Origin: Halorhodospira halochloris
Lineage (GTDB): Bacteria; Pseudomonadota; Gammaproteobacteria; Nitrococcales; Halorhodospiraceae
Assembly: GCF_002356555.2 (NCBI RefSeq)
Contig: NZ_AP017372.2
Coordinates: 1,550,001 to 1,614,000 of the forward strand
Reading direction: 5' to 3'
DNA length: 64,000 bases
The translations under genes and the position numbers were made by a program. The notes under the pieces are model-generated. The model did no database searches and was not told where the DNA came from. It saw only the letters and a list, made by a program, of their open reading frames with translations. Below, piece after piece: positions 4,204 to 60,541 of this stretch (its first letter is position 1; every line of letters begins with the position of its first letter).

Positions 4204-5736
4204 ATGGAGTGTAAGGATATGGCTATATCCAAAGAGCTTGAGGCGCAGATCATGCGCTATCACTACGCCGAGCACTGGCGCGTCGGCACCATTTCCCGAC
4301 AACTCAATGTCCACACCGATGTCGTCCATAGGGTGCTGGCAAAGGCCGGTATCCCTAGTGCACAACGCACTAGGCGAGAATCGATCATTGATCCCTATGT
4401 ACCCTGGATCGAGCAGACCCTGGCAGATTACCCCAAAATACCAGCTAGCCGGCTCTATGACATGGCCCGCGAGCGTGGTTATTCGGGCGGCCCTGATCAC
4501 TTTCGCCACCTGATAAGCCAGTACCGGCCGAAACCGGTCGCTGAGGCGTATATGCGCCTGCGTACCCTGCCCGGGGAGCAGGCACAGGTCGATTGGGGCC
4601 ATTTCGGCAAACTGCCCATAGGTCGGGCTAAGCGCCCACTGATGGCATTTGTCATGGTCCTGAGCTATTCGCGCTGGATCTTTCTGCGCTTCTACCTCGG
4701 CTCATCGACGGCCAACTTTTTGCGTGGCCACGTCGCCGCCTTCGAGGCCTGGCAGGGGGTGTGCAGGTGCCTGCTCTACGATAACCTCAAAAGCGCGGTG
4801 CTGGAGCGCTACGCCGAACAGATCCGCTTTAATCCGCAGCTACTCGATCTTAGCGCCCACTACGGCTTTGAGCCACGGCCAGTAGCCGTAGCCCGAGGCA
4901 ACGAAAAGGGCCGTGTCGAGCGGGCAATCCGCTATGTGCGTTCCAGCTTCTGGCCCGGTAGGCAGTTTAACTGCCTTGATGATCTGAACGAGCAGGCGCA
5001 GCACTGGTGCGTAAGCATTGCCGCCGAGCGGCGCTGCGATCAGGAGCAAAAGAGCAGTGTTCGCCAGGCATTTGCCGAGGAGCAGCCTTACCTACGTGCC
5101 TTACCCAGCGAGCCATTTCCTTGCTATGAGAACGTGCCTGTAAAGGTAGGCAAAACCCCTTATGTGCGCTTTGACCTTAACGACTACTCGGTGCCGCACG
5201 AATATGTCCGCAAAACGCTCAGCGTCAGCGCAACTCTGGAGAGGATCCAGGTGCTTGATGGCGAGAATGTTATAGCCTCGCATCCACGCAGCTATGATCG
5301 CCATGCTCAAATAGAGGACCCGCGCCATATCGATAAGCTAGCCCAAGAGAAGCAAGCTGCTCGACTACATCGTGGCACCGACCGGCTTAGCAGCTCTGTA
5401 CCGCGCGCCAAGGAGTTTCTCTCGCAAGCGGCAACGCGCACCAATAGCCTCGGCAGCGTCACAGCTGCGCTACTTCGTCTGCTCGATCACTACGGCGCCA
5501 GCGAGCTCGATGCCGCCATTGAGCACGCTCTCGAGCGTGGTGTACCCCACCCACATGCCCTCAGCCAGATCCTCGAACAACGCCGCGATCAAACCCCTGG
5601 CCCGCCATCGCTGCCTCTGCGCTTACCCGAGCAGCTACGTCAACGTGAGCCAAGCATCCGGTTGCGCGGGCTCGATGGCTACGACGCCCTAACCCCTAAC
5701 TATGAGAAAGACGACAATGACCCCGAAAACACCTGA
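4204..5736 (+). CDS. istA: IS21 family transposase IstA (element A)
   Basis: This 510-residue transposase has an N-terminal helix-turn-helix (HWRVGTISRQLNVHTDVVHR, about residues 21-40) and an RNase-H-like DDE core. The acidic triad is visible as QVDWGHFG, LLYDNLKSAV and ARGNEKGRVERAIRYV. The C-terminal domain is of Mu-transposase type. An in-frame ATG at 4219 is an alternative start. Length is normal for the family and no frameshift is visible, so the enzyme is probably active. Its frame overlaps istB by 35 bp, the usual IS21 layout for translational coupling. Confidence 0.95.
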   Translation: MECKDMAISKELEAQIMRYHYAEHWRVGTISRQLNVHTDVVHRVLAKAGIPSAQRTRRESIIDPYVPWIEQTLADYPKIPASRLYDMARERGYSGGPDHFRHLISQYRPKPVAEAYMRLRTLPGEQAQVDWGHFGKLPIGRAKRPLMAFVMVLSYSRWIFLRFYLGSSTANFLRGHVAAFEAWQGVCRCLLYDNLKSAVLERYAEQIRFNPQLLDLSAHYGFEPRPVAVARGNEKGRVERAIRYVRSSFWPGRQFNCLDDLNEQAQHWCVSIAAERRCDQEQKSSVRQAFAEEQPYLRALPSEPFPCYENVPVKVGKTPYVRFDLNDYSVPHEYVRKTLSVSATLERIQVLDGENVIASHPRSYDRHAQIEDPRHIDKLAQEKQAARLHRGTDRLSSSVPRAKEFLSQAATRTNSLGSVTAALLRLLDHYGASELDAAIEHALERGVPHPHALSQILEQRRDQTPGPPSLPLRLPEQLRQREPSIRLRGLDGYDALTPNYEKDDNDPENT

Positions 5737-6496
5737 GCAGCAAATGATTGAGCGGGCCAAGGCCCTGCGCTTGCATGGCATCCTCGCCCACTGGGAAGAG
5801 ATTGAGGATAAGGAGTGGATCGAGCAGATGCTGTGCTGGGAAGAGCAAGAGCGCACCCGCCGCTCTCTCGAGCGCCGCCTGAGCGAAGCACATATAGGGC
5901 GTTTCAAGCCGATGAGCGAATTCGATTGGTCGTGGCCTACTAGCTGTGACCGCGGCGCTATCAATGCCCTGATGAGCCTGGAATTCATCCCCGAGGCCGG
6001 TAATGTCGTCCTGCTCGGCAGTAACGGCGTCGGCAAAACCATGATAGCCCGCAATATCGCCTACCAGGCGGTAATCGCCGGCTATACCGCGCTCTTTGTC
6101 AACGCCAGCACCATTCTCGCCGAGCTGGCCTCACAAGACAGTGAGAGGCTACTCCAGCAGCGCTTTAACCGATTCACTAGGCCACGCTTACTGGTCATCG
6201 ACGAGCTAGGGTATCTCTCCTACTCGACGCGTTATGCCGATCTGCTCTTCGAATTGGTCAGCCGCCGGTACGAGAAGAACTCTATTATCATCACCACCAA
6301 TCGCCCCTTTAGCGAGTGGGGCGAGGTCTTCCCGAGTGCTGCGTGTGTCGTATCCCTGATCGATAGACTGCTGCATAACGCTGAAGTGCTCGCCATAGAC
6401 GGCGAGTCATATCGCTACAAGGAAGCTCAAGAACGCAGAAACACCCGAGAAGCTAAGCGCAAGTCCCCGAGCAAAAAAGCCAAAGCAGAGAGTTAA
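5702..6496 (+). CDS. istB: IS21 helper ATPase IstB (element A)
   Basis: 264 residues with Walker A GSNGVGKT, Walker B LLVIDELGYL and sensor residues TTNRPFSEW, typical of the DnaC/IstB AAA+ group. IstB oligomerises on target DNA and hands it to the IstA transposase. The C-terminus is lysine-rich (REAKRKSPSKKAKAES). Translation may start at ATG 5702 or at the in-frame ATG 5717. Both lie inside the 3' end of istA. The frame is intact. Confidence 0.95.
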   Translation: MRKTTMTPKTPEQQMIERAKALRLHGILAHWEEIEDKEWIEQMLCWEEQERTRRSLERRLSEAHIGRFKPMSEFDWSWPTSCDRGAINALMSLEFIPEAGNVVLLGSNGVGKTMIARNIAYQAVIAGYTALFVNASTILAELASQDSERLLQQRFNRFTRPRLLVIDELGYLSYSTRYADLLFELVSRRYEKNSIIITTNRPFSEWGEVFPSAACVVSLIDRLLHNAEVLAIDGESYRYKEAQERRNTREAKRKSPSKKAKAES

Positions 6497-6690
6497 TTTA
6501 CCACCTGTAAGGAAAAGGACATGGCGGTGGATCTCAGTAACGTATTAGTATGTCTGAATCCTCCGCCAATTTCGTACGGTTTTCCAAAGCCGCTAACACC
6601 CTGGATGCAACCACGTCGGAGCAAGCCTCATGACCCTATGTTATAGCGTTGAACTACTGCCAAAGGAGACGGTTCAAATCATTAGAACGG

Positions 6691-6784
6691 GACGTTCACT
6701 TCGCTTGGAATGGGCATGTCACTTCAATTGGAATAGGACGTTCACTTCGTTTGGAATGGGGCTATCACTTGACTGGAATCTGCA
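6691..6784. repeat. Terminal multiple repeats of IS21 element A
   Basis: Four imperfect copies of a 22-25 bp unit start at about 6691, 6715, 6737 and 6762. Each holds TCACTT followed about 6-8 bases later by TGGAAT. Copies 1 and 3 are nearly identical (GACGTTCACTTCG). They probably bind IstA at the right end of the element. Bases 6497-6690 contain no gene. Confidence 0.65.
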
Positions 6785-6987: not shown

Positions 6988-8046
6988 ATGGAACGTCTGC
7001 GTTCCCTCTCTATGATCGCCTGCGTATGTAATTTCAGCCTAGTCATGCACGCGGCATCCGCGGCGGATCGGGAACCGCTTTATGTCGAAGCCGCAGTAGG
7101 CGATCCCGAAAACGCAGTGGAGTTGATTGAGGCGGGCGCCGACCCTAATGCTCGGGAAGAGGACGGCTGGACCGCTCTCATGGTTGCCGCTCAGTTGAAC
7201 AAGCCGGACATGGCCGAGACTCTCCTCGATCATGGCTCCGACCCCAATGCTCGGGGCGAGAGGGGCGAGACCGCTCTGATGATAGCCGCTCATGAAAACG
7301 ATCCGGAGATGGCCGAAACGCTGATCGAGCACGGTGCCAACCCAAATGCTCGGAGAGAGAGCGGCGTGACCGCCCTTATGTTCGCCGCTCAGCACAACGA
7401 GCCGGACATGGTCGAAACACTCCTCGATCACGGCGCCGACCCCAATGCTCGGGAAGAGGACGGCTGGACCGCCCTCATGCTTGCTGCTCAACACAACGAG
7501 CCGACCATGGCCGAGACCCTGATCAACCATGGCGCCAAAACCGATGCTCGGAACGAGATCAACGCGACCGCCCTTATGATCGCCGCTCAGTCCAACGAGC
7601 CGGACATGGCCGAGACACTCCTCGATCATGGCTCAGACGCCAATGCTCGGGACGAGGACGGCTGGACCGCCCTCATGTTCGCCGCTCAGCACAACGAGCC
7701 GGACATGGTCGAAACACTCCTCGATCACGGCGCCGACCCCAATGCTCGGGAAGAGGACGGCTGGACCGCCCTCATGCTTGCTGCTCAACACAACGAGCCG
7801 ACCATGACCGAGACCCTGATCAACCATGGCGCCAAAACCGATGCTCGGAACGAGGTGAACGCGACGGCCCTTATGATCGCCGCTACGGGAAACGATCCGG
7901 CCATGGTCGACGCCCTGCTCGACCACGGCGCCGACCCGGGGAAGCGCATCGATCAGGGAACCACGGCTGCTGACTTCGCCGAGGACAACCCGGCTGTCCG
8001 CAATTCCGACGTCTACTGGCGCCTCCACGAAGGGCGCTACGAGTAA
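6988..8046 (+). CDS. Secreted ankyrin-repeat protein
   Basis: 352 residues. The ATG at 6988 has a strong ribosome-binding site (AAGGGAGGAG, 6975-6984). An N-terminal signal peptide runs to about AASA (residue 30), then come about nine 33-residue ankyrin repeats with the core T-A-L-M-x-A-A and D-x-G-A/S-D-P-N-A-R. Ankyrin stacks bind partner proteins. With a signal peptide this one probably acts in the periplasm or outside the cell, perhaps in protein-protein contact or predation/defence, which is inference. The last repeat is degenerate and the protein ends without another domain. Three repeats are duplicated almost exactly at DNA level (see repeat). Confidence 0.85.
   Translation: MERLRSLSMIACVCNFSLVMHAASAADREPLYVEAAVGDPENAVELIEAGADPNAREEDGWTALMVAAQLNKPDMAETLLDHGSDPNARGERGETALMIAAHENDPEMAETLIEHGANPNARRESGVTALMFAAQHNEPDMVETLLDHGADPNAREEDGWTALMLAAQHNEPTMAETLINHGAKTDARNEINATALMIAAQSNEPDMAETLLDHGSDANARDEDGWTALMFAAQHNEPDMVETLLDHGADPNAREEDGWTALMLAAQHNEPTMTETLINHGAKTDARNEVNATALMIAATGNDPAMVDALLDHGADPGKRIDQGTTAADFAEDNPAVRNSDVYWRLHEGRYE
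7381..7884. repeat. 297-bp-period duplication of three ankyrin repeats
   Basis: Bases 7381-7587 recur at 7678-7884 with only a handful of mismatches. The offset of 297 bp equals exactly three 33-codon ankyrin repeats. Near identity at the DNA level, including silent positions, points to a recent internal duplication or gene conversion rather than selection on the protein alone. Confidence 0.9.
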
Positions 8047-12256: not shown

Positions 12257-12269
12257 GTTACGCAGTAAC
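12257..12269. promoter_or_regulatory. Second operator-like palindrome, overlapping the istB stop
   Basis: GTTACGCAGTAAC, identical over 13 bases to the copy at 12071-12085. It overlaps the istB stop codon. The repeat could control read-through from istB into the third gene. Bases 12086-12256 hold no other gene. Confidence 0.5.
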
Positions 12270-13031
12270 ACTATTGTGTGAGTTTGCGTCACCGCCAATA
12301 GCCTCAGAGTGCTGCTTGCGCATTGATTCACCACTGAGCTTGAGCCGATGTGCCCCGTGCAGAAGGCGATCGAGGATGGCATCAGCGAGCGTTGCCTCGC
12401 CGATGTATTCGTGCCAATGCTCAATAGGGAGCTGACTGGCGATTAGCGAGGAGCGTTGGCCGTGGCGCTGCTCAATCACCTCCATCAGATCCTGACGCTG
12501 AGAGGCAGTCATCTTTTGAAGCCCCCAATCGTCGAGGATAAGCAAATCCATTTTGAGCAGCCGGTTCATCAAGCGAGGATAGGAACCGTCGCCGTGGGCG
12601 ATGCGCAGCTGCTCAAACAGCGTCGGCAACCGCAAATAGCGTACCGAGAGCCCTTGGCGGCACGCCTGGTTGCCGAGAGCGCAGGCCAACCAGGTCTTGC
12701 CACAGCCGGTGGGGCCGGTGATGCAGAGGTTGTGAGCGTTGCGGATCCAGCCGCACTGAGCCAGTGCCGCCATGCTCGATTTCTCTAAATCCCTGGGGTG
12801 GCGGTAATCGATATCCTCGACACAGGCTTGGACTCGGAGCTTAGCCTCCTTGAGCAAGCGGTTCAGCCGCCGGTTCTCGCGGTAGAGCACCTCTTGCTCG
12901 ACTAGCATAGCGAAGCGTTGTTCGAAGGGAAGTTCGTAGGTTTCAGGCTGTGCCTGTTGCTGCTCTAGCGCGTGGAGCATGCCGACGAGCTTGAGAGCGC
13001 GTAGTTGTTCGATTGTCTGTTGATGGAGCAT
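12258..13031 (-). CDS. istB: IS21 helper ATPase IstB (element B)
   Basis: 257 residues from ATG 13031, which is preceded by GGGGGAC. A longer frame runs back into istA but has no support. Walker A GPTGCGKT and Walker B LLILDDWGLQ are present, with the sensor SQLPIEHWHEYIG. It belongs to a different IS21 subgroup from the IstB of element A (LDDWG in place of IDELG). It follows istA after 13 bp. The frame is intact. Confidence 0.95.
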   Translation of the reverse strand: MLHQQTIEQLRALKLVGMLHALEQQQAQPETYELPFEQRFAMLVEQEVLYRENRRLNRLLKEAKLRVQACVEDIDYRHPRDLEKSSMAALAQCGWIRNAHNLCITGPTGCGKTWLACALGNQACRQGLSVRYLRLPTLFEQLRIAHGDGSYPRLMNRLLKMDLLILDDWGLQKMTASQRQDLMEVIEQRHGQRSSLIASQLPIEHWHEYIGEATLADAILDRLLHGAHRLKLSGESMRKQHSEAIGGDANSHNSVTA

Positions 13032-13044
13032 GGCAAGGTCCCCC

Positions 13045-14583
13045 TCAGTGGTAGTAGTCAGCGCCGCGGACATTCGTGTGAGCCGGTAGCTCGTCTGCAG
13101 AGTCGCTTTCCGGCTCCAATGGCAGTTGGTCGAGCCCCTGCTTGATGATGGAGGCGACGCTCTTATAGCTAGCGGCACCGATTGCTAAGGCCCGCACACA
13201 AGCCGCCTCTAGGCGGGGACGACCGAAGCGTCGGGATAGATTCAGCAGCCCTAAACAGGCGCGGTAGCTATGCTCGGGGTGGGGGCGGTTGTATAGCTGC
13301 TGCTCGACGAGCTCGGCGGTAGCCGGACCAACCGCCGCTGCCCAGTGCATGAAGCGCTGCGGCGACCACTCGCGATGGGCCTGATGGGACCTCGGCATGT
13401 GCTCGATCACAGTAGAGTAGCGCCCCTGAGCGTGACGGGCATGGCTAGCGACCCGCTGACCTTTGTGTAGAATCTCCACCGCAGTAGCGCTAATGCGTAA
13501 CTCCAGCATATGACCGACTAGAGCGTGCGGGACGCTGTAAAAGCGCCCCTCATATTCAACGTGGTAGTCGATGCCTGGCTTAGCTCTGTGCCACTCGGCG
13601 TACTCGTAGGCCTCACGGGGCAGTACGCCCAGGGCTGGGCGATCCAAAGACTCAAACAAATCCCTACGGCTCTCGCTGCGACCTTGAAAGGGGCGTTCGT
13701 TGAGCACCGGTAGCAGTTCGCAGATGGCCTGATTAAGCTCCGCTAACGAGAAAAACGTATGATGACGCAGCCGCGCTAAAATCCACCGTTCGACTACCTG
13801 GACGGCCACTTCTACCTTGGCTTTGTCCTTCGGTTTGTAGGGGCGAGCGGGCAGTATGGCGGTGTTGTAGTGGGTCGCCATATCTGCATAGGTATCGTTG
13901 ACTTTGGGGGCGTAACGATCTGCCCTCGTCACAGCAGCCTTGAGATTGTCAGGAATCAGAAGCCGCGGTACACCGCCGAAAAAGCGCAGCATCCGCTGAT
14001 TTGAGGCAATCCAGTCCGGCAGAGACTGACTCCAGGTGGCTTCGGCGTAGGTATAGCTTGAAGCCCCAAGGACACCGACAAAGATCTGGGCAAGGCGCAC
14101 TGCACCGGTATCGCGTTCGTTTACCGCTACCGTCGTGCCGCAGTAGTCGAGGAACGCCTTCTCTCCAGCGCGGTGGTGTTGCCGCATACTACGCTTTTGC
14201 CGCGAGCGCCACTGGCGATAACGGTGGCAATAATAGCTGTAACGGTAAGCCCGCTCACCATAAGTGGCAGCATACTCACCCCACAGCAGCTGCAGCGTCA
14301 CCCCTTTGCGCTTGAGCTGTTGATGGATCTGGAAGCAGTCAGGCTCCACAAAGCCGCGCTGCGGCTGCTCAGAGGGGTAGAGCAGCGCCTCCAGTCGCGC
14401 CTCATCAACACCCTCGGGAAGCGGCCAATAGAGACCCTGTGCCTTGGCCAGGCTGACATACTTGCTAACTGCCCCTTTGGAGAGCTTACAGACTCGAGCA
14501 ATCTGCTCATGACTCAGACCGGCTTGGTACTTGAGGCGCAACACTTCGGTAATCTTCTTCATTCGAACCCTCTCCGTTGGCAT
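13045..14583 (-). CDS. istA: IS21 family transposase IstA (element B)
   Basis: 512 residues from ATG 14583, with GAGGGAG six bases upstream. A TTG at 14601 extends the frame but lies before the ribosome-binding site. The N-terminus has a helix-turn-helix (LSHEQIARVCKLSKGAVSKY). The DDE triad is seen in FLDYCGTT, LIPDNLKAAV and KAKVEVAVQVVERW. The C-terminal domain shows YHVEYEGRFYSVPHALVG, usual in the family. Complete and probably functional. Confidence 0.95.
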   Translation of the reverse strand: MPTERVRMKKITEVLRLKYQAGLSHEQIARVCKLSKGAVSKYVSLAKAQGLYWPLPEGVDEARLEALLYPSEQPQRGFVEPDCFQIHQQLKRKGVTLQLLWGEYAATYGERAYRYSYYCHRYRQWRSRQKRSMRQHHRAGEKAFLDYCGTTVAVNERDTGAVRLAQIFVGVLGASSYTYAEATWSQSLPDWIASNQRMLRFFGGVPRLLIPDNLKAAVTRADRYAPKVNDTYADMATHYNTAILPARPYKPKDKAKVEVAVQVVERWILARLRHHTFFSLAELNQAICELLPVLNERPFQGRSESRRDLFESLDRPALGVLPREAYEYAEWHRAKPGIDYHVEYEGRFYSVPHALVGHMLELRISATAVEILHKGQRVASHARHAQGRYSTVIEHMPRSHQAHREWSPQRFMHWAAAVGPATAELVEQQLYNRPHPEHSYRACLGLLNLSRRFGRPRLEAACVRALAIGAASYKSVASIIKQGLDQLPLEPESDSADELPAHTNVRGADYYH

Positions 14584-14680
14584 CGCCGTCTCCCTCTTCA
14601 ATAGGTAAGTAAAGACAGCGGTTATGCCGATTTAAGACTAAGGATTCCAGTGGGTTCGATGATATTCCGCACCAACGTGA

Positions 14681-14878
14681 CCGCGGTTTACGGCATCGTG
14701 ACCGCGATTTACGTGATCGTGACCGCGACTTACGTGATCGTGACCGCAGTTTGCGCGATCGTGACCGCGGTTTACGCAAAGGAGATCAAAATCGGTCACG
14801 TTCAAACGGAAAACGCGGTCACGTTGGCTCGGAATTCCCGGTCACGTTCACGCGGAAAACGCGGTCACGATCGTCCGG
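14681..14878. repeat. Right-end tandem repeats of IS21 element B
   Basis: Four to five direct repeats of about 24 bp (core ATCGTGACCGCG.TTTACG) run from about 14681 to 14780. Four inverted copies with the core GCGGTCACG follow to 14873. The outermost copy matches the left end in inverted orientation. The minus strand of this stretch gives an Arg/Ser-rich open frame that is an artefact of the repeats. Confidence 0.75.
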
Positions 14879-15013
14879 AATACGCAATCATAGCAAGTTT
14901 CTCCTTTGCGTAGTGCCACATCACGGGCAAAGGCACACATCGGCCCTTACAGGGCTAAGTGCCTGCCCGGCCATTGGCGGTTAGGATTAAGGTGTAGCGA
15001 AGGTAGGAGGGAC

Positions 15014-30415: not shown

Positions 30416-30646
30416 CTAGCGGCTCTCGCCCTGGTGGCCATCGCCCGCAGATTGAGATCCGTCCGCCTCACCTTCATCGTCGCGCTCATGTCGGATCCGC
30501 TCGTAGATCTCCTCCCGATGTACCGAAACATCACGAGGCGCGTTAACACCGATCCGTACCTGGTTTCCTTTTACTCCGAGCACAGTCACACTGATCTCAT
30601 CGCCAATCATCAGTGTCTCGCCCACTCGCCTTGTGAGTATTAGCAT
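30416..30646 (-). CDS. csrA: Carbon storage regulator CsrA
   Basis: 76 residues. The CsrA fold is complete: [16 protein letters not shown], then [20 protein letters not shown]. CsrA dimers bind GGA motifs in mRNA leaders and control carbon storage, motility and biofilm genes. The C-terminal 20 residues are an unstructured, charged extension beyond the usual 60-residue protein. It lies downstream of lysC, on the same strand, with GGAGGAG upstream of the start. Confidence 0.97.
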
Positions 30647-45029: not shown

Positions 45030-45198
45030 AGCTTCACAAATCTCACCCTGGAGCCACTCAGCTATCCCGGTGCGGAGGGCGCCGTGAATCCATCCCTGGA
45101 GGCTTCATGGCGCCATCCGAGGCTTCATGGCGCTATCCCTGGCGCCAAGACCTCCGCACCGGGGCAGTTGAGTGACTCCAGGGGAGTTTTTGAAGTAC
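45030..45198. repeat. Palindromic MITE-like repeat, copy A (full length)
   Basis: The two ends are near-perfect inverted copies of about 50 bases. The left contains CCTGGAGCCACTCAGCT, the right CAGTTGAGTGACTCCAGG, and the inner arms are CCCGGTGCGGAGG and CCTCCGCACCGGGG. The centre holds ATCCATCCCTGGAGGCTTC and GGCGCCA dyads. It sits between the hydrolase and SQR genes. Confidence 0.85.
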
Positions 45199-45323
45199 CC
45201 AGTAGGTAGTAATTTTATATATGACTCGATACCTAAGTTTCGATCTGCTAGATTCTATAGTGCGTTTTGAGGCTCCCCCAGCAGAGCTGCAACATATAAT
45301 AATACGCCCAGGAGGAACCGAGT

Positions 45324-47145: not shown

Positions 47146-47271
47146 GCCAGCAGACCTCATGGCGCCAGAGCTAGCCGGCTCTGGCGCCATGAAGCATCCA
47201 GGGATGGATTCACGGCGTCCCCCACACCGGGGCGGATGGTGGCTCCGGCGAAGTTTTTAGAGGTTCCCCTT
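47146..47271. repeat. Palindromic MITE-like repeat, copy B (left arm degraded)
   Basis: The centre GGCGCCAGAGCTAGCC and GGCTCTGGCGCC is a fresh dyad. ATCCAGGGATGGATTCACGG, CCACACCGGGGC and the end GTTTTTAGAGGTTCCC match the other copies. The left half of the element is reduced. Confidence 0.75.
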
Positions 47272-47778: not shown

Positions 47779-47855
47779 AGGGAACATCTAAATACACCCC
47801 CGGGCCAATTGGCTGCCCCGGTGTGGAGGTATTGGCGCCAGGGATGGCGACGCCT
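47779..47855. repeat. Palindromic MITE-like repeat, copy C (left half)
   Basis: It begins GGGAACATCTAAATACACCC and continues through CCAATTGGCTGCCCCGGTG and TGGAGG to GGCGCCAGGGATGGCG, then stops. Only the left half of the family is present. It lies upstream of nfo. Confidence 0.75.
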
Positions 47856-47966
47856 TTTCTAAGCCCACCGCAGGCAGTCTTTTTAGCTGCCCTCTACTCC
47901 ATAATGGGGATTATTGCTCGCTACAACAAGCCAAGCTTCTCACCGGGAAATAAAGAGGATACCTTT

Positions 47967-48860
47967 ATGCTTCAAATCGGCGCTCACGTCTCTGCTGCTG
48001 GAGGAACACCCAACGCCCTGGGCAGAGGCGAGGAGATTGGTTGTAACTGCATTCAGATATTTACCCGTAACCAACGCACCTGGAAAGCTAAGCCGGTAAG
48101 TAGTACGGAGGCTGAGGAGTTCCATACCAAGCGCGGCGAGCACCCGATGCAGACGGTGATGAGTCATGCCTCTTACTTGATTAACTTGGCCGCCCCGGAT
48201 GAGGAGAAGCACCAGAAATCGAGTGCTGTATTCGCCGAGGAGCTAACCCGCTGCCAACAATTGGGCATTGAACTGCTCAATTTCCACCCCGGGGCCCACA
48301 TAGAGGCAGGTCTTGAACAGGGCATAGAAAAAATCGCCACCACTCTCAATGCAATATGTCATGAGCATGCCGACAAGCAAGATGTCACCCTAGTACTGGA
48401 GAATGTCGCCGGACAGGGCACAACCATAGGCGCCGACTTCGCTGAGTTGGCTGCAATCATAGATCTTCTCGATCAACCTGAACGCTTTGGGGTATGTGTC
48501 GACACAGCACACGCCTTCGCCGCCGGCTACGAGCTGCACCATGAACAGGGCTGGGAGGATATGTGGCAGGATTTCGACACCAAGATCGGCCTGCACCGCT
48601 TGTGCGCCTTACATATTAACGACTCCAAAGTCGGTTTGGGATCGCGCAAAGACCGCCACGCCCTGATCGGACGCGGCGAAATCGGCCCCGATGCCTTCAT
48701 TCGTGCGCTCACTGACCAGCGTACCCGCGATATCCCGCAGTTCTTGGAGACACCGGCCGGACCCGAGGGCTGGGCAGAGGAGATAAAGTGGCTGCGCGCC
48801 AGTGCCGCCGGTGATAGACCTGAGCTTCCCGAAATAGCAGATAGCGGAGTAAGCTTATGA
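47967..48860 (+). CDS. nfo: Deoxyribonuclease IV (AP endonuclease)
   Basis: 297 residues from ATG 47967, with AGAGGA eight bases upstream. An open frame back to 47823 runs through the palindromic repeat and is not coding. Metal-binding motifs of endonuclease IV are seen in NFHPGAHIEAGLEQG, VLENVAGQGTTIG, CVDTAHAFAAGY and LHINDSKVGLGSRKDRH. It cuts DNA at abasic sites and trims damaged 3' ends. The C-terminus carries a short acidic extension. Confidence 0.95.
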   Translation: MLQIGAHVSAAGGTPNALGRGEEIGCNCIQIFTRNQRTWKAKPVSSTEAEEFHTKRGEHPMQTVMSHASYLINLAAPDEEKHQKSSAVFAEELTRCQQLGIELLNFHPGAHIEAGLEQGIEKIATTLNAICHEHADKQDVTLVLENVAGQGTTIGADFAELAAIIDLLDQPERFGVCVDTAHAFAAGYELHHEQGWEDMWQDFDTKIGLHRLCALHINDSKVGLGSRKDRHALIGRGEIGPDAFIRALTDQRTRDIPQFLETPAGPEGWAEEIKWLRASAAGDRPELPEIADSGVSL

Positions 48861-48887: not shown

Positions 48888-49625
48888 ATGACCAAACCCT
48901 TAACCGCTATTGCCCATGAGCGGATAGCTGACAGTCTCCCGCCTGCCTGCAGCGCTATAGACGCCACCGCCGGCAACGGCCACGATACCCTCTTCCTAGC
49001 CCATGGCGTGGGCCCTCACGGCAGGGTGTTATCTATAGACATCCAAAGCACGGCACTCGAGCAGACCCGGCGGCGTTTGCAGCAACATGGCCTGCTGGAG
49101 AGAGTAACCCTCATTCAGGGTGATCACCGCAATATGCGAGATTTTGTTGAACAACAAGGGCTTGATAACATCCGAGCAGTGATGTTCAACCTTGGTTACC
49201 ATCCCGGCGGCAACAAAGAGATAACCACTCAAGTGCCGAGTACGCTATCGGCCTTGGCTGCTGCGCTTGATATACTCAGTGCAAACGGAGGCACTTTAAG
49301 TGTCATGGCTTACCGTGGCCATGAAGGTGGCGCGCATGAGGCCGATGAGGTAAAACGATTCCTTGAGAGAAGCTCTAAAAACCTCCCCGGTGTCGAGGAC
49401 GCCATGAATCAATCCCTGGAGGCTTCATGGCGCCACCCTTGGCGCCATGACCTCCACAATGGGGCAGATTATGGCGCCGGGGAATTTTTTAGAGGTACCC
49501 TTGAGAGGGAAATAGCTACTCCGCAAAATGAGTGCAAACTTGATGTTTTAGAGACTCAAAGCCTTAACGGCCCGGTGCTTTATCTATTCAGCCTGAACAG
49601 CAATGAGGAGCGGGACAATGAGTAA
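48888..49625 (+). CDS. Class I SAM-dependent methyltransferase (rRNA-methylase-like) with an in-frame repeat insertion
   Basis: 245 residues. The SAM site reads AIDATAGNGHDTLFLA (about residues 23-38), with IRAVMFNLGYHPGGNK and VMAYRGHEGGAHEADEV following, the pattern of small YtqB-like putative rRNA methylases of about 190-200 residues. Residues about 161-206 are foreign. They are encoded by a palindromic repeat (49370-49498) plus one copy of the flanking 9-bp direct repeat, 138 bp or 46 codons in total, so the frame is kept. Removing it restores RFLEREIATPQ. Whether the enzyme still works is unknown. It overlaps the next gene by 8 bp. Confidence 0.85.
   Translation: MTKPLTAIAHERIADSLPPACSAIDATAGNGHDTLFLAHGVGPHGRVLSIDIQSTALEQTRRRLQQHGLLERVTLIQGDHRNMRDFVEQQGLDNIRAVMFNLGYHPGGNKEITTQVPSTLSALAAALDILSANGGTLSVMAYRGHEGGAHEADEVKRFLERSSKNLPGVEDAMNQSLEASWRHPWRHDLHNGADYGAGEFFRGTLEREIATPQNECKLDVLETQSLNGPVLYLFSLNSNEERDNE
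49361..49507. repeat. Palindromic MITE-like repeat, copy D, inserted in frame with flanking duplication
   Basis: CCTTGAGAG occurs at 49361-49369 and again at 49499-49507, flanking a 129-bp palindromic copy. The inner ends AGCTCTAAAAACCTCCCCGG and CCGGGGAATTTTTTAGAG are inverted repeats. The net insertion is 138 bp, a multiple of three. This is the best evidence in the window that the family moves by transposition. Confidence 0.88.
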
Positions 49626-50307: not shown

Positions 50308-50447
50308 GGAACCTCTAGAAACTTTCCCAGAGCCACTTATCGGTTCCGTTATGGAGGACGCCGTGAATCCATCCCCGAAGCCTTCATGGCGCCAACACCT
50401 CCACCCCGCGGCAGTTCTAGGCTCAGGAGGAGGTTCTCAGAGGCGCC
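50308..50447. repeat. Palindromic MITE-like repeat, copy E
   Basis: The start is GGAACCTCTAGAAACTTTCC and the end AGGAGGTTCTCAGAGGCGCC. Inner parts GGACGCCGTGAATCCATCCC and CTTCATGGCGCC match other copies. It lies between the SDR gene and the convergent higA-like gene. Confidence 0.75.
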
Positions 50448-52753: not shown

Positions 52754-52905
52754 CGGGGAAGCTCGCCCCCCCCCTGAGCCACTTGGCTGGCCCGGTGTGG
52801 AGGTCTTGGCGCCAGGGATGGCGCCATGAAGCCTCCAGGGATGGATTCACGGCGTCCTCCACACCGGGCGGCCAATTGGCTCAAGTGGGGAGTTCGATGT
52901 CCTCG
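52754..52905. repeat. Palindromic MITE-like repeat, copy F
   Basis: TGAGCCACTTGGCTGGCCCG and GGCCAATTGGCTCA are the outer arms, CCGGTGTGGAGG and CCTCCACACCGG the inner ones, with GGCGCCAGGGATGGCGCC at the centre. It lies between pckG and metF and reaches into the 3' end of metF, providing its stop codon. Confidence 0.8.
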
Positions 52906-60436: not shown

Positions 60437-60457
60437 ATATTACAAACATTAGCGTCC

Positions 60458-60541
60458 ACCATGAAGCCTCCAGGGATGGGTTCACGGCGTCCTCCACACC
60501 GGGGCAGCTGAGTGGATCAGGGGGAGTTATAGAGGTTCCCT
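60458..60541. repeat. Palindromic MITE-like repeat, copy G (right half)
   Basis: The core GCCTCCAGGGATGGGTTCAC, then CCTCCACACCGGGGC, and the end GAGTTATAGAGGTTCCCT match the right half of the family. It lies between the DnaE-like gene start and tadA. Confidence 0.75.

Follow-up and report, generated by a model that had tools for sequence, protein, structure and literature searches.

An in-frame palindromic insertion in mnmM of Halorhodospira halochloris belongs to a mobile repeat whose conserved two-hairpin core may bind CsrA

Introduction

The mnmM gene of Halorhodospira halochloris encodes 46 residues that its relatives lack, and the locus raises the question of how a palindromic stretch of DNA came to lie inside a conserved gene and what, if anything, keeps it recognisable. 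A sequence-only reading of the window, by which we mean the whole stretch of 64,000 nucleotides that was analysed (NZ_AP017372.2, forward-strand positions 1,550,001 to 1,614,000; GC content 55.5%), had proposed that a mobile palindromic repeat was inserted in frame in a methyltransferase gene, and had correctly placed it in a halophilic gammaproteobacterium. We have followed the element from this gene to the rest of the genome, and its central segment to other members of the Gammaproteobacteria.

Results

The host gene (48888-49625, plus strand) encodes a protein of 245 amino acids, 46 of them foreign. It had been described as a YtqB-like methylase; the family assignment is sound (PF06962, 5e-35), and the NCBIfam equivalog NF053511 (169.6 bits, against a cut-off of 135) narrows it to MnmM, the tRNA 5-aminomethyl-2-thiouridine (U34) methyltransferase. 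Relatives of known structure include PDB entries 3eey and 8h0s; the best alignment stops at residue 161, at about the start of the insert. Alignment with other copies delimits an element of 134 bp in mnmM (49367-49500, plus strand), which lacks 18 bp of its left arm in comparison with copies of 152 bp; the strand at 49350-49520 folds 8 standard deviations better than shuffled sequence (z = -8). The element is flanked by TTGA on the left (49363-49366) and on the right (49501-49504). The nine bases CCTTGAGAG do recur at 49361-49369 and 49499-49507, 138 bp apart, and had been read as a 9-bp flanking duplication; the true target duplication is the 4-bp TTGA, and the matching bases beyond it reflect the fit to a preferred target, CYNNRG, and to the element ends. 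Element and duplication together make 138 bp (134 + 4), or 46 codons, a multiple of three, and the reading frame is uninterrupted. As predicted, the flanks rejoin to a continuous protein, in which EVKRFLER is followed by EIATPQ.

The claim that the peptide is foreign and missing from orthologues was borne out by protein alignment: the 46 residues are absent from all 19 of the relatives' proteins compared. This set (L002-L020) came from a protein search that matched 26 of 40 genomes, including that of H. halochloris itself, and it leaves out six weak matches to part of the methyltransferase core only. The residues could in principle be an old native insertion that was lost elsewhere, with an incidental resemblance to the repeat, and the MnmM of H. 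abdelmalekii (G002) is also longer at this position. That stretch differs in sequence, and it indicates instead that the insertion lies in a region tolerant of additions. Given the absence in 19 of 19 relatives, the target duplication and the 85-89% DNA identity, over about 105-126 bp, between the mnmM copy and its best 39 other genomic matches, we give a native origin almost no credence.

A mobile palindromic repeat implies copies elsewhere, and these were found throughout the genome. A sequence model detected at least 158 matches, tblastn with the MnmM protein found 71 in the same genome and blastn at least 58; nhmmer, run on the window and on 118 stretches taken around the 150 matches listed, gave 216 that do not overlap. 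The window alone holds seven copies (eight matches), and extrapolation from this density would give about 300 copies genome-wide. Besides the one in mnmM, these are a rearranged copy in two partial matches (45031-45199, plus strand), copies at 47153-47267 (minus) and 50308-50446 (plus), partial copies at 47780-47851 and 60457-60539 (both minus), and a copy with an intact core (R2, 85.3 bits) at 52772-52892 (minus). The partial copy in the region 47780-47860 supplies an upstream GTG and first residues to ORF 47823-48860, which is endonuclease IV-like by eye; its real start is probably at MLQIGAHVSAAGG, and automatic annotation of the start may be misled by the element.

Where the ends are clear, most copies are of similar length: 13 of the first 30 measure 152 bp and 26 of those 30 measure 150-153 bp, as do 73 of the 92 copies with a duplication. 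Their ends are of the GGGNNCCTCTAAA type, with terminal inverted repeats of the GGGNNCCTCT type on both sides, and the end motif GGNNNCCTCTAAA matches the genome 172 times, compared with six times for a reversed control. An exact 4-bp duplication stands at the predicted ends of 47 of 154 two-ended copies, where 0.6 would be expected. When the ends were moved, shifts that keep the spacing gave 3-37 duplications, shifts one base shorter gave 11-29 (reflecting 151-bp copies), and the remaining 36 of the 49 shifts gave 0-5. If any of the 49 shifts (ends moved by up to 3 bp) is accepted, 92 of 154 copies are duplicated, of which up to about 29 may be due to chance; the mnmM copy lies outside the 92, its model match beginning at position 24. 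Terminal inverted repeats and a target duplication of fixed size (4 bp) are features of a MITE; the preferred target is CYNNRG. Element and duplication add up to a length divisible by three in just 39 of the 92 copies (as in 152 + 4 = 156), so the element shows no tuning of its length to the reading frame.

No partner transposase could be paired with the element in the sequence searched. The genome has six PF01609 loci, and none has paired element ends alongside, there being just unpaired look-alikes of the ends at up to three mismatches; a PF01609 transposase was therefore rejected as the partner. The fetched fifth of the genome likewise has no pair of ends 400-4000 bp apart. As neither the six loci nor this fifth contains an autonomous partner, we describe the element as MITE-like and assign it to no IS family. 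Copies are mostly intergenic: 23 of 211 lie inside a called ORF, and some of these ORFs are surely spurious (a crude caller, with a coding density of about 0.86). A placement like that of terminators or REP sequences was considered and rejected, since 43 copies lie between convergent and 42 between divergent genes.

In 21 of the 182 copies examined (from the 216) the element is spanned by an ORF that has 20 or more codons before it and 15 or more after it; in nine there are at least 40 on either side. Six recognisable proteins are found among those nine: MnmM, ComEC, YgiQ, CobB and LhgO, all named by NCBIfam, and an epimerase that matches general families only and that we take to be YeeZ-like. 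The spanning ORFs at 1069513, 1697387 and 2677900 were left out of this count; the first two match no NCBIfam family, and the one at 1697387 has a sub-threshold Pfam match away from the insert. Empty sites are visible in relatives for several of the six. The insert in the YeeZ-like protein is absent from five of five relatives' genomes. LhgO has a counterpart in one of five relatives, where the two flanking matches abut exactly. CobB lacks the insert in G006 and G007, which belong to the same genus, while G002 and G016 match at 35-43% and G010 has no match. YgiQ has 353 residues over 301 Pfam profile positions (52 extra amino acids); its insert is absent in G006 and G007, G010 and G016 give no match, and the YgiQ of H. 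abdelmalekii (G002, L231) has an unrelated longer linker exactly where the element sits. The ComEC insert lies outside the family match.

The consensus is open in two of six frames, and this was also the commonest outcome in palindromic shuffles (2251 of 5000), so selection for stop-free frames was rejected. By eye, MnmM, the epimerase and ComEC share one open frame, LhgO uses the other, and CobB and YgiQ contain diverged copies that are read in further frames. With openness at the level of chance and several frames in use there is no sign of coding design; the simplest assumption is that copies are filtered by selection on the host gene. Gene disruption was examined in the 92 duplicated copies: joining the flanks gives nine ORFs that extend 40 codons or more to either side, of which just the YeeZ-like and ComEC genes are recognisable, both of them in frame, and the remaining seven are spurious or intergenic by eye (one is also open through the element). 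Disruption of genes was rejected.

Aligned copies carry private changes on both arms with pairing kept. Among 2809 pair cells from 71 young copies there are 28 rare double-change Watson-Crick pairs (25 types). Independent change of the arms would give about 0.6, by a hand calculation based on the 143 one-change cells; four other cells are not Watson-Crick. Shared ancestry inflates the double-change count somewhat, and some of these changes may be inherited. We infer that the arms are kept palindromic by template switching in the hairpin, one arm being copied onto the other, and the maintenance of hairpins by template switching is, from the part of it available, the subject of PMC8794818. Selection on RNA structure could also keep the arms matched, and such selection may operate in the core helices if nowhere else, since these covary strongly (below). 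In the young arms the one-change cells outnumber the two-change cells by 143 to 28; broken pairs are tolerated, so the paired changes are better explained by copying; we consider selection along the arms a doubtful explanation of their symmetry.

Matches to the element in relatives are confined to its middle. A fixed-loop pattern for the middle matched 44 contig stretches in the genome collection, including Thioalkalivibrio paradoxus, Pseudidiomarina terrestris, Sedimenticola, Chromatiales MAGs and H. abdelmalekii. We built a 59-nt structure model from 18 cores (13 pattern stretches, one from G010 and four from H. halochloris); six of the 24 cores collected were left out, four as near-duplicates or own copies and two as degenerate own copies. 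At E <= 1e-5 the model finds this core in 64 genomes, from 57 genera, in a sample of 369 gammaproteobacterial genomes that covers 272 genera; 17 of the positive genomes have at least 15 matches and the others range down to one. On plasmids and phages, one query per collection gave no match at E <= 0.01. The core of the mnmM copy, whose GGA orientation is on the minus strand, lies at 49395-49453 (R2, 64.7 bits).

In other genomes too the core is flanked by inverted repeats, and these differ from genome to genome. We compared 54 of a further 60 copies fetched (12 genomes), having set aside six, three of which were truncated at contig ends. Within a copy the arms are on average 0.80 identical to each other. 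Between copies of one genome the arms are 0.65 identical, falling to 0.48-0.54 in five genomes, where random sequence gives 0.42; the core is 0.90 identical. The arms may drift under constant re-matching, as those of G121 and G346 appear by eye to do, or the core may enter palindromes that already exist. In Halorhodospira sp. CSSed162cmA_122 several copies are bounded, by eye, by TA, compared with the 4 bp of H. halochloris. A shared core with nearly unrelated arms, mostly in well matched palindromes, was also seen in G276, G346, G359 and G084 (L318-L329, L347-L350, L371-L372).

The core consists of two hairpins, each with a six-base ANGGAN loop closed by a C-G pair, and there are 20 nt between the two GGAs. 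In an alignment of 78 distinct cores the closing C-G pair is present in both hairpins of all 78 and 99.7% of pair cells are standard. Double-change cells number 226, against 68 in shuffled alignments and 9-23 in slid controls, and the covariation score is 0.524, against 0.143 and 0.046-0.082 respectively. This alignment was fitted to the model and leans towards it; the 18-row alignment, made without the model, agrees.

Changes in the loops are concentrated at two positions. Across 151 six-base loops (five loops of other length are outside this count) there were 33 changes at N2, 31 at N6, one each at A1 and A5 and none at G3 or G4; 64 of 66 changes thus fall where ANGGAN allows them, and the A and the GGA are kept in 149 of 151 loops. 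The probability of such a concentration is about 3e-28 on the assumption of independent sequences, which these are not. Having been trained with a single, fixed loop sequence, the model penalises all six positions alike, and without the training rows 62 of 64 changes, in 127 loops, are still at N2 or N6. In H. halochloris both loops read CANGGANG in 144 of 182 copies, with 38 changes at N2 and 27 at N6 against 8-14 at each other position. In the mnmM copy one loop, AGGGAT (49412-49417, minus strand), is intact, and the other, AAGGGT (49435-49440, minus strand), has lost the GGA.

This pattern recalls the binding sites of CsrA and its relatives. The accessible part of PMC7652899 gives the CsrA SELEX consensus as RUACARGGAUGU and the RsmE loop as ANGGAN, and states that one CsrA dimer bridges sites 10-63 nt apart, with an optimum above 18. 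Of the 78 distinct cores, 16 contain UACAGGGAUGU and two the full CsrA consensus. A csrA gene (30416-30646, minus strand; 76 amino acids; PF02599, 91.4 bits), the proposed partner of the core, lies in the window. We infer from sequence that the core is a pair of predicted CsrA/RsmA-binding sites carried by mobile palindromes. The wider proposition, that palindromes with genome-variable, hairpin-copied arms move through the Gammaproteobacteria with one conserved cargo, a predicted twin CsrA-binding RNA module, we put forward tentatively, as quite possible and a little short of probable.

Co-occurrence carries little weight here, as csrA is nearly universal: it was matched in 75 of 80 genomes searched, and a match was absent in four of 66 core-positive genomes and one of 14 others. 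One of the four, G234, is 98% complete and has nine core matches. G335 and G379 have eight and seven CsrA-family matches. Nor does orientation favour a role in mRNA, since the GGA strand shows no preference for the sense strand: it is sense in 39 of 96 tandem contexts in H. halochloris and in 6 of 19 among 68 other loci (one of them from H. halochloris), or 45 of 115 combined (p = 0.025 towards antisense). The 68 other loci are distributed as 12 convergent, four divergent, 19 tandem, 20 inside an ORF and 20 at an edge, and outside H. halochloris the core may prefer the 3' ends of genes.

An orientation that is unbiased, or slightly antisense, is what would be expected if the core acted as DNA. 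The loops might be conserved for a transposase or other DNA-binding protein that reads single-stranded or cruciform hairpins, as RAYTs do with REP sequences, and the presence of the core in palindromes with hardly related arms also fits such a signal. Against it, the changes allowed are those of ANGGAN with a fixed C-G closing pair, which is the known CsrA/RsmE rule, and no core-linked transposase was seen in a comparison covering PF01609 in H. halochloris; we think a DNA-level signal rather unlikely. Alternatively the other strand may be the conserved one, its NUCCNU loops providing small RNAs, like Ysr224, with anti-Shine-Dalgarno seeds. That RNA is modelled in the corresponding orientation, and this strand is in slight excess as the sense strand; the fixed base opposite A1 beside a variable neighbour and the fixed C-G closing pair would nevertheless be left unexplained, and we regard the proposal as improbable. 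CsrA/RsmA binding remains our preferred reading of the core.

Discussion

Among the systems compared by sequence, the closest relative seen is YPAL/RU-2 of Yersinia. RU-2 (about 168 bp), as printed in the accessible part of PMC2759123, holds by eye both GGA hairpins with the same flanking bases. The Rfam family Ysr224 (RF02770), modelled on the non-GGA strand, is the only described RNA family that we matched with the core motif: it aligns to the window copy at 52772-52892 with 28.1 bits (E 8e-5 for 181 bases; gathering score 70) and, below the gathering score, to copies in Thioalkalivibrio, and gave nothing at E <= 0.01 in five other loci. YPAL/RU-2 is described, in the portions available, as a dispersed palindrome with an open frame through the element and in-frame fusions, all of which apply here. 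It differs in that its inverted repeats are reported as internal and its duplications as ranging from 3 to 26 bp (PMC2229807, in part), whereas our element has inverted repeats at its ends and a duplication fixed at 4 bp, and the fusions described are at protein ends (PMC2759123), whereas several here are inside conserved proteins. With terminal repeats and a fixed duplication, the element is related to YPAL and is no member of it.

The likeness to rickettsial palindromic elements that the sequence-only reading had seen is one of behaviour, and by sequence the element groups with YPAL/RU-2. Set beside the descriptions in PMC10969869, as far as available, it shares with the Rickettsia elements a size of about 150 bp, a palindromic form and in-frame insertion inside several unrelated conserved proteins; nearly half of those elements lie in ORFs, compared with six recognisable genes per 182 copies here. 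QMITE1 and QMITE2 of Coxiella, and bacterial MITEs generally, share terminal repeats, duplications, high copy number and occasional in-frame insertion (PMC5896051, in part); on this comparison by description QMITE2 has duplications of 7-11 nt, against 4 bp. REP sequences of the GTAG and CGTC types are also small palindromes, some inside genes and some within larger palindromes, but are 20-40 bp long with tag motifs (PMC3733652, in part); ours measures about 150 bp and duplicates 4 bp of its target. CGTC-REP membership was rejected, the core failing by eye to match the description given there.

A joint explanation that we consider highly probable combines a MITE-like palindrome of the YPAL/RU-2 kind, copying between its arms, a predicted CsrA-binding core and mobilisation of the DDE type. 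The element, presumably non-autonomous, inserts with a 4-bp target duplication, preferably at CYNNRG, and now stands at well over a hundred positions in this genome, most of them intergenic. If its length together with the duplication is divisible by three and it is read in an open frame, a gene can remain open with about 50 additional residues, as mnmM does. Template switching in the hairpin would copy one arm onto the other, and the core would be kept because its RNA binds a CsrA/RsmA dimer at both loops. From the ends and the duplication, the mobilising enzyme would be a DDE-type transposase that recognises the GGGNNCCTCT ends.

CsrA sponges of the CsrB/RsmY type also present repeated GGA hairpins; they are encoded by dedicated small RNA genes, whereas the candidate sites described here are dispersed in a mobile element. 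If the core does bind CsrA, there would be up to hundreds of docking sites scattered over a chromosome, with about 50 residues occasionally added to conserved proteins, and mobile elements would be dispersing the binding site of a global regulator across a bacterial class. Mobile DNA would then be linked to post-transcriptional control, and surveys of CsrA targets could be re-read for repeats. Among the titles and opening lines of abstracts searched, a set that excludes most subscription papers, none links such repeats to CsrA and none describes a class-wide core; a search of literature text for the letters of the core returned nothing related. A 2026 preprint with a class-wide model of CsrA targets lists, in its accessible part, transposase activity as enriched among the predicted targets and makes no mention of palindromes or YPAL.

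Independently of CsrA, these findings show that palindromes also insert in frame in the genes of a free-living halophile. Such insertion is known best from Rickettsia and has been reported for enterobacteria and Coxiella; here, for several of the conserved enzymes concerned, relatives have empty sites. The element also offers a natural system for studying how arms are matched in hairpins while their sequence drifts.

The window contains other repetitive and mobile DNA. Two IS21-like pairs (IstA/IstB-like ORFs, by eye) lie at 4204-6496 and 12258-14601, adjoined by arrays of 21-23-bp repeats at 6681-6779 and 14676-14881. A 352-amino-acid ORF at 6988-8046 encodes about eight ankyrin-like repeats of 33 residues (by eye), corresponding to a 99-bp tandem array in the DNA.
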